64,000 nucleotides of DNA from Brachyspira murdochii DSM 12563. Its GTDB lineage: Bacteria; Spirochaetota; Brachyspiria; Brachyspirales; Brachyspiraceae. This document shows positions 17,555 through 20,485 of this stretch, in pieces (position 1 is the first letter of the stretch; each line of letters opens with the position of its first letter). Made by a program: the position numbers and the translations under genes. The notes beneath the pieces were generated by a model that saw only the letters and a list, made by a program, of their open reading frames with translations, was not told where the DNA came from and did no database searches. Where the stretch lies: assembly GCF_000092845.1 (NCBI RefSeq), contig NC_014150.1, forward strand, positions 744,001-808,000, read 5' to 3'.

Positions 17555-17905
17555 TCAATCTATTATAAAATTTTTCATATTTACAAATATTACTTTAGTT
17601 TTAAAGTTATTTATACTGTCTTCGGCAATATGTCCGTAAGAAAGTATTATTATAGTATCATCTTTTTTGGCATAGTGAACATTATCTCCATTAATACCTA
17701 TAACACCTGTACCGCGTATCCCTTTAATTGCAACTGTTTCAAATCTTTCATCGTTACTTAAATTAATAACAGATACCCTGTCCCCTTCCAGTATATCTGA
17801 TTTATCCATCAGGGCTTCATCTATTGTTATTGAGTCTTTAAAATTTAAATCAGTTCTTGTTACTGTAAGTCTATGTATCTTAGACTTTATAACACTTCTC
17901 ATCAT
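17555..17905 (-). CDS. PanD-like protein (aspartate 1-decarboxylase family) with altered active site
   Basis: Starting at ATG 17905, the 116 residues align without gaps over the first 77 positions of E. coli PanD, which makes beta-alanine for pantothenate. Conserved are Lys9, His11, Ser25 (source of the pyruvoyl group), Arg54, Thr57, Asn72 and Gly73. Two key positions differ: Gly24 of the self-cleavage site is Asp (FKDS), and the proton donor Tyr58 is Val (RFETVAIK); the substrate-contacting Ala74-Ala75 are Asp-Asn. Upstream in-frame codons are excluded because they run into the promoter at 17961-17989. It precedes the giant activase by 28 bp. It may still process and decarboxylate, or have another role; I give no symbol for that reason. 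Confidence 0.75.
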   Translation of the reverse strand: MMRSVIKSKIHRLTVTRTDLNFKDSITIDEALMDKSDILEGDRVSVINLSNDERFETVAIKGIRGTGVIGINGDNVHYAKKDDTIIILSYGHIAEDSINNFKTKVIFVNMKNFIID

Positions 17906-18083: not shown

Positions 18084-18908
18084 TCAAAATTGACTTATGA
18101 ATGCATTTATGAAATTTCCTCTTAAATCACCTTCAACAATAACATCCAAAGGAAAAACCCTTTTATTACCCAATCTATAATTAACATAATCATATTTTTC
18201 ATGTATTATTATTTCAATAAGATCTATTTTATTTGCAAACTCCTTGACAAATTCTCTTTCATCAACAGTATTCTCACCCCTTTTTGCTGCTGCCTTATTG
18301 CCTTGACTAATTATACTTCTTGCTGAATATTCTTTAATCTCATTATTCCAATATTCTATGTCAGAAAATATATTTCTAATAAAATTAACAGACTTTTCTT
18401 TATAGTATTCATCAGCATCGTCAAAAGCTATAAGCACTTTTATATTGTTAATCCAATCAAACTCTTTATCAAAAGAACCTACCATTCTGTTATACAAAAA
18501 ATCACCCAAAACTTCATCTTTATAGTAAATAGGCTCTAAATATTCCTTAAGCATAGGAGTTAAATCTTCATCTTTATAATTACTATCTATAATATCAGCA
18601 AGTAAAAACTCTGCTAACTCCTCACCCTGCTCTTTTTCATATCTTACCTTTAATTTTACAACAGACTCCCTTTTAAGAATTGATTTATAATAATCCATTT
18701 CTTTTTCATCTATTTTCATTCTAACAACTATTTTTTTATTTTTTTCTATGTAATTAGTCTCTATATCTTTATATGCAATACAGATAATAAGAACATTTAT
18801 TTTATTATCATCTTCAGTTTTTGCCCCTAAAAAGTCTGGAGAACCTATTATAAAAGCAGCATCTTTATATTCATCTCTAAATTCACTTTCTTTTTGTAAA
18901 TAAAACAT
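18084..18908 (-). CDS. DUF2262-domain protein
   Basis: A 274-residue soluble, acidic protein. The C-terminal half (about 128-274) has the layout of DUF2262: DEVLGDFLYNRMVGSFDKEF followed by DWINNIKV, then IEYWNNEIKEYSARSII, REFVKEFANKIDLIEIIIHE and the closing FPLDVIVEGDLRGNFINAFI. The N-terminal part forms a separate small alpha/beta domain of the kind usually found in front of DUF2262. The family has no settled function; members occur among candidate immunity and accessory proteins. It has its own promoter and no partner gene. Family call is by pattern only. Confidence 0.6.
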   Translation of the reverse strand: MFYLQKESEFRDEYKDAAFIIGSPDFLGAKTEDDNKINVLIICIAYKDIETNYIEKNKKIVVRMKIDEKEMDYYKSILKRESVVKLKVRYEKEQGEELAEFLLADIIDSNYKDEDLTPMLKEYLEPIYYKDEVLGDFLYNRMVGSFDKEFDWINNIKVLIAFDDADEYYKEKSVNFIRNIFSDIEYWNNEIKEYSARSIISQGNKAAAKRGENTVDEREFVKEFANKIDLIEIIIHEKYDYVNYRLGNKRVFPLDVIVEGDLRGNFINAFISQF

Positions 18909-19492: not shown

Positions 19493-20485
19493 ATGATATA
19501 TAATATGTGGTATGCAGTATTAGATTCAAGAGAAGTAAAAAAAAATAAACCTCTTTTTGCTAAGAGATTAAATAAAAATCTAGTATTTTGGAGAGATAAA
19601 AATAATAATATATGCTGTATAGATGATAAATGCTGTCATAGAGGAGCTTCATTATCTCATGGCAAGGTATGCGTAGATAATATAGCCTGTCCTTTTCATG
19701 GATTTCAGTTTGATAAAAGCGGGAAAACAGTAATAATTCCAGCTAATGGAAAAAATACAGAAGTTAATAAAAATTTTTTCGTTTCGGGATATGAAGTAAG
19801 AGATTTGTATGGATTTATTTGGTTTTGGTATGGAGATAAAGATAAAATTAATGATAAAATAATGTTTCCAGATGATTTGAGAGACAATAAATTCTCATAC
19901 TCTAGCATTAAAGATGAATGGAATAATCATTATACAAGATGCATAGAAAATCAGCTTGATGTAGTGCATGTAGCTTTTGTACATCATAACACTATAGGAA
20001 GAGGAAATAAAACTATTGTTAATGGGCCATTAGTAGAGTCAGATGAAGATAGTAATATATTAAAATTCTATGTAAATAATGTTACAGATAATGGACAAAA
20101 AGCCTTAAATGCCTCAGAAATGAAAAAAGAGGATTTTAAATATTTTTTATATTTTTATTTTCCAAATACTTGGCAGAATTACATATTTGAAAAGATGCGT
20201 ATATTCGGAGTATTTGCCCCTGTTGACGATGAAAATACTGTGATATATATGAGGTTCTATCAAAAAATATTAAATATTCCTTTTATAAAGAATATAATAA
20301 ACTTCATAGGCAAAAAATATTCAGATATTGTATTAAAACAAGATAAAAATGTAGTAAAAACTCAATCTAAAAAAGAATCTTATCTTGGTATGAAAGAAGA
20401 AAAATTAATACCGGGAGACAAACCTATAATAATGTATAGAAGCATAAGAGACAAGCTAAAAAATAAAAATAATCCTCTTATGTAA
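19493..20485 (+). CDS. Rieske-type non-haem iron oxygenase
   Basis: A 330-residue oxygenase alpha-subunit-like protein. The Rieske [2Fe-2S] ligands are Cys47-x-His49 in DKCCHRGASLSHG and Cys66-xx-His69 in ACPFHGFQFD. The mononuclear iron site follows as ENQLDVVHVAFVHH (Asp156, His159, His164). The C-terminal part contains a hydrophobic stretch like those of PaO/vanillate-demethylase-type enzymes. Such enzymes hydroxylate or demethylate ring substrates with O2 and need a reductase; none is encoded nearby. An O2-dependent enzyme is notable in an anaerobic spirochaete, and the gene may have been acquired. Start codon is ATG after AAGGATACATCT. Substrate unknown. Confidence 0.85.
   Translation: MIYNMWYAVLDSREVKKNKPLFAKRLNKNLVFWRDKNNNICCIDDKCCHRGASLSHGKVCVDNIACPFHGFQFDKSGKTVIIPANGKNTEVNKNFFVSGYEVRDLYGFIWFWYGDKDKINDKIMFPDDLRDNKFSYSSIKDEWNNHYTRCIENQLDVVHVAFVHHNTIGRGNKTIVNGPLVESDEDSNILKFYVNNVTDNGQKALNASEMKKEDFKYFLYFYFPNTWQNYIFEKMRIFGVFAPVDDENTVIYMRFYQKILNIPFIKNIINFIGKKYSDIVLKQDKNVVKTQSKKESYLGMKEEKLIPGDKPIIMYRSIRDKLKNKNNPLM

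Follow-up and report, generated by a model that had tools for sequence, protein, structure and literature searches.

Aspartate 1-decarboxylase (PanD) is cleaved to its pyruvoyl form at Gly24-Ser25, and 13 strictly conserved residues have been listed for the enzyme (PMC3314653). In E. coli, this cleavage needs Thr57 but neither Tyr58 nor Tyr22, and it is blocked in T57V (PMC3975893). Tyr58 has been put forward as the proton donor (Saldanha 2001, as cited in PMC3314653), and the title of a Corynebacterium study, as cited in PMC10743139, names it as significant for self-cleavage. The E. coli mutants G24S, S25T and T57V (PDB entries 1pqf, 1pqh and 4azd) are unbroken chains in their solved structures. 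In PanC of M. tuberculosis, Lys160 and Arg198 contact the phosphates of ATP, and K160A is about 1000-fold less active (PMC5772511). The open-access literature searched held no earlier report of a PanD pseudoenzyme, and nothing on pantothenate or PanD in Brachyspira that bears on the protein described here.

The window, 64,000 nucleotides from the complete 3.24-Mb genome of Brachyspira murdochii, encodes a full-length homologue and true descendant of PanD (Table 1). Pfam Asp_decarbox (PF02261) spans it end to end (positions 1-114 of 115; E = 1.4e-35; 122.1 bits at a cut-off of 25), and the NCBIfam panD equivalog TIGR00223 scores it at 107.0 bits, with a cut-off of 106. The same model gives 54-104 bits for seven other PanDs of the family, all below the cut-off, and 171 bits for the single outgroup protein scored. 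An AlphaFold model of the B. murdochii protein (pLDDT 96.8) matches PanD entries of the PDB in Foldseek at TM 0.92-0.96, with an rmsd of about 1.1 for most top matches; it reproduces the double-psi barrel of the E. coli precursors at a TM of about 0.95. The solved structures nearest to the model are uncleaved PanD precursors and mutants. No second, canonical PanD was found in the complete B. murdochii genome.

Table 1. Features at the panD locus (positions in the window) and panC of the same genome (positions on contig C1)
Feature	Position	Strand	Remarks
Acyl-CoA dehydratase activase-type protein, 1434 aa	13222..17526	-	two BcrAD_BadFG domains and DUF2229; 28 bp downstream of panD
PanD homologue, active site eroded	17555..17905	-	116 aa, ATG to stop
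Val58 codon	17732..17734	-	equivalent to Tyr58, the proposed proton donor; from translation
Asp24-Ser25 codons	17831..17836	-	equivalent to Gly24-Ser25, where canonical PanD is cleaved; from translation
Promoter-like TTGACA-17-TAAAAT upstream of panD	17989-17961	-	consensus match only
DUF7021/DUF2262 protein, upstream of panD	18084..18908	-	adjoins panD in many, not all, Brachyspira
B. murdochii panC	C1:2241512-2242318	-	same genome

Ungapped HMMER alignments to the solved enzymes of E. coli (1ppy) and M. tuberculosis (2c45) bear out the residues given in an earlier note on this DNA: Asp stands before Ser25, Val at position 58 and Asp-Asn at 74-75, and Lys9, Ser25, Arg54, Thr57 and Asn72 are kept. 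Like canonical PanD, the protein thus has the residue of activation (Thr57) and the substrate residues Lys9 and Arg54, and H11 and G73 are retained as well. Unlike canonical PanD, it is without Gly24, Tyr22, Tyr58, Ala74 and Ala75, having F22, D24, V58, D74, N75 and V76 at the altered positions; Gly52 and Gly82 are further replaced by Asp. It has neither the Gly24-Ser25 cleavage motif nor the Tyr58 proton donor, and retains eight of the 13 published residues, as against 11-13 in canonical PanDs (n = 37).

We compared residues across 64 sequences: 24 full-length Brachyspira PanDs, three from sister genera and 37 canonical PanDs. The canonical set comprises 35 proteins taken from genomes of other spirochaetes plus those of E. 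coli and B. subtilis; the E. coli PanD sequence used matches the solved chain over the alignment obtained, and an E. coli sequence also served as the PanC reference. All 37 have Gly24, Ser25, Thr57 and Tyr58. None of the 24 Brachyspira proteins has Gly24 (Asp in 23, Asn in one) or Tyr58 (Glu, Val, Ile, Phe or Asp instead), so that the loss of these two residues can be put down neither to chance nor to sequencing error. The losses of Gly24, Tyr58, Ala74 and Ala75 are fixed in the genus, which answers the proposal of the earlier note that fixation be checked. Lys9, Ser25, Arg54, Asn72 and Gly73 never vary among the 24, which share 39 invariant positions of 112 overall, and position 57 is Thr in 17 (B. 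murdochii among them) and Ala in seven. The number of key residues left is 5-8 of 13 within Brachyspira and 2, 2 and 6 of 13 in the three sister-genus proteins, two of which have Thr25 in place of Ser25 and two of which have lost Thr57. The most divergent of these three is still predicted to adopt the PanD fold (pLDDT 92.5).

Near-identical panD genes among named relatives are those of Brachyspira. A protein search of a species-genome collection returned close relatives from Brachyspira only, plus one Dehalococcoidia match, a PanD relative 37% identical on a metagenome contig (L111, 146-400).

Apart from PanD itself, the enzymes of the pathway are missing or eroded. PanB was found in none of 29 family genomes, and most other sampled spirochaetes have it. 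The PanE C-terminal domain was found in none of the 14 family genomes searched for it; as it is also missing from one outgroup genome with panB, its absence alone is weak evidence. CoaX kinase is present in all 14. PanC is encoded in 17 of 26 Brachyspira genomes, including B. murdochii, and missing from seven of at least 98% completeness; such absence calls depend on the assemblies, that of B. murdochii being complete. In all 13 Brachyspira PanCs examined (L124-L129, L131-L137), the Lys of GEKDxQQ and the Arg of SSRN, the counterparts of Lys160 and Arg198 in M. tuberculosis, are gone, while HxGH is retained (its first His is Asn in one) and so is the substrate Gln in all but one. PanCs of other spirochaetes keep these motif residues, with the exception of one very divergent protein (G052). 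PanC resembles PanD in that it, too, is an eroded enzyme of pantothenate synthesis retained under purifying selection; it differs in being another enzyme, and one lost outright in several Brachyspira that keep PanD. With no PanB, no PanE domain and a PanC that is eroded or absent, PanD would stand outside any normal pantothenate pathway, and an ordinary role in pantothenate synthesis appears excluded by gene content; PanB, PanE and PanC do not occur together in the B. murdochii genome, whose PanC has neither the catalytic Lys nor the ATP-contacting Arg. Since these genes are gone or eroded, Brachyspira species most likely import pantothenate and should be auxotrophs for it, and panD and panC annotations overstate vitamin B5 synthesis in these animal gut bacteria.

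The altered protein is maintained. For panD, pairwise omega ranges from 0.02 to 0.17, and within the Ala57 clade, which has no panC, from 0.02 to 0.11; the values are similar to those of the neighbouring activase gene (0.03-0.10), with 0.07-0.22 for panC and 0.10-0.24 for the neighbouring DUF2262 gene. Purifying selection acts on panD, and the low omega indicates that it is selected as a protein. The gene is present in all well-assembled genomes of the family, in three genera, including the seven with Ala57, and no frameshifts or stops were found in it. In one Brachyspira (G012) it is split over two contigs, and in the fragmented, 88% complete assembly G006 no panD was detected. These observations leave little room for a relic of the lost pathway that is drifting to loss: the other pathway enzymes are missing or eroded and active-site residues differ among species, as a relic would have it, but no pair compared has an omega anywhere near 1, the clade without panC included, the gene is kept intact across three genera and even the most divergent member gives a confident model, so that we regard this explanation as very improbable.

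The family's natural Asp/Asn24, the Thr25 of sister genera and Ala57 recall the E. coli mutants G24S, S25T and T57V, with the difference that these are laboratory mutants of one enzyme and the family's changes are natural, combined and conserved. Given the mutants and the E. coli residue data, self-cleavage of B. murdochii PanD is doubtful, and it would be unlikely in the Ala57 species and in the Thr25 proteins of sister genera. One premise behind the earlier note's reading is weakened by the E. coli data: as Tyr58 is dispensable for cleavage there (PMC3975893), its loss touches catalysis more than processing. Normal decarboxylation of aspartate by the B. murdochii protein is, from its residues, unlikely.

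We therefore lean, with some reservation, towards a descendant of PanD that no longer takes part in pantothenate synthesis and survives as a pseudoenzyme with the PanD fold, staying uncleaved and serving a non-canonical binding role. The chain would mostly remain uncleaved because Asp or Asn replaces Gly24 and because Thr57 is gone as well in seven Brachyspira and in two of three sister genomes. Instead of decarboxylating aspartate, the retained pocket (Lys9, Arg54, Asn72, Gly73) would then bind either a partner protein or a small acid. Such an uncleaved pseudoenzyme is favoured by the missing Thr57 in the seven Brachyspira and the missing Ser25 in two genomes of sister genera. Against it, a pure scaffold need not keep Ser25, Lys9, Arg54, Asn72 and Gly73 invariant, though 39 positions are invariant anyway, and 17 of the 24 Brachyspira proteins have Thr57. 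Nor is the erosion clearly directed at the active site: where other PanDs are conserved, residues of the active site have not changed significantly more often than the remaining ones (Fisher tests at four conservation thresholds, p at least 0.7), and targeted erosion was rejected on this result. If true, the protein would represent a natural, family-wide PanD pseudoenzyme, and the graded natural series of residues could test which of them pyruvoyl formation needs.

A repurposed pyruvoyl enzyme is the alternative that survives best, although we consider it unlikely. Here, species with Thr57 would cleave Asp24-Ser25, and the pyruvoyl group would take a different substrate or follow a different route, given the altered Tyr58 donor and Ala74-Ala75 contacts. 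The invariance of Lys9, Ser25, Arg54, Asn72 and Gly73 speaks for such an enzyme, and the E. coli requirement for Thr57 alone among Thr57, Tyr58 and Tyr22 agrees with it; the uncleaved G24S structure and the retention of the protein with Ala57 in seven Brachyspira genomes count against it. It also draws on an apparent coupling to panC: within Brachyspira, all Ala57 PanDs come from genomes without panC and all Thr57 PanDs from genomes with it, save one 86% complete assembly. However, when changes are counted on a tree of a single gene, pnp, whose support within Brachyspira is modest, the Thr57-panC association comes down to one independent contrast within Brachyspira and two across the family, of which one runs the other way in most pairings, and sister genus g2 has panC alongside PanDs with Leu57 or Ala57. 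The idea that Thr57 is retained because PanC needs beta-alanine was rejected (sign test p = 1 on these few independent contrasts of the pnp tree). A repurposed PanD might work together with the altered PanC, but that the two jointly serve a new reaction or a regulatory complex, Thr57 surviving only in genomes that retain PanC, seems to us improbable.

A weakened aspartate decarboxylase that supplies beta-alanine to PanC, with pantoate being scavenged, is likewise improbable. The B. murdochii protein lies just above the equivalog cut-off, keeps Lys9, Ser25, Arg54 and Thr57, and shares its genome with panC. All seven scored relatives fall below that cut-off, however, the proposed proton donor (Saldanha 2001, as cited in PMC3314653) is gone genus-wide, Brachyspira PanC is without the Lys whose replacement by Ala is so costly in M. 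tuberculosis (PMC5772511), and PanB and the PanE domain are both absent. The earlier note saw in the protein either a dead scaffold or a pyruvoyl enzyme put to new use; this view is supported in part, in that the changes are fixed and under selection and the ordinary role appears excluded, and both options keep some probability. In the gut spirochaete Brachyspira, PanD probably now serves something other than beta-alanine synthesis.

Unlike canonical PanD, which the B. murdochii protein further departs from by the absence of panB and panE from its genome, the gene is paired with a giant activase gene and not with pan genes. Cotranscription of the two, as claimed in the earlier note, is plausible: they lie 28 bp apart on the same strand, no terminator-like site was found, and a promoter-like site precedes panD. 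The activase follows panD directly in every panD-bearing Brachyspira except G010, and also in sister genus g2. The pairing is old and probably an operon, and PanD is probably co-expressed with the activase in most species. The pair is conserved but not obligatory: G010 has no activase and keeps panD as an isolated gene, and in genome G027, from another genus, panD immediately precedes dnaA and the activase is elsewhere. The pairing is therefore no functional necessity; a dedicated activase partner was rejected as a role for PanD on these two genomes, and the role of PanD would be independent of the activase gene.

Two loci are of note in this connection. In the reduced 2.0-Mb genome of G010 (L040, 4784-7116), panB, panC and the activase are lost and panD is isolated. 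In sister genus g3, the eroded panD is followed after 6 bp by dnaA, both on one strand (L057, 6010-6375 and 4633-6003, minus).

Brachyspira is regarded as an anaerobic genus. The window also encodes, at 19493-20485 on the plus strand, an oxygenase-type enzyme, namely a Rieske [2Fe-2S] protein whose C-terminal domain is that of a vanillate O-demethylase oxygenase.
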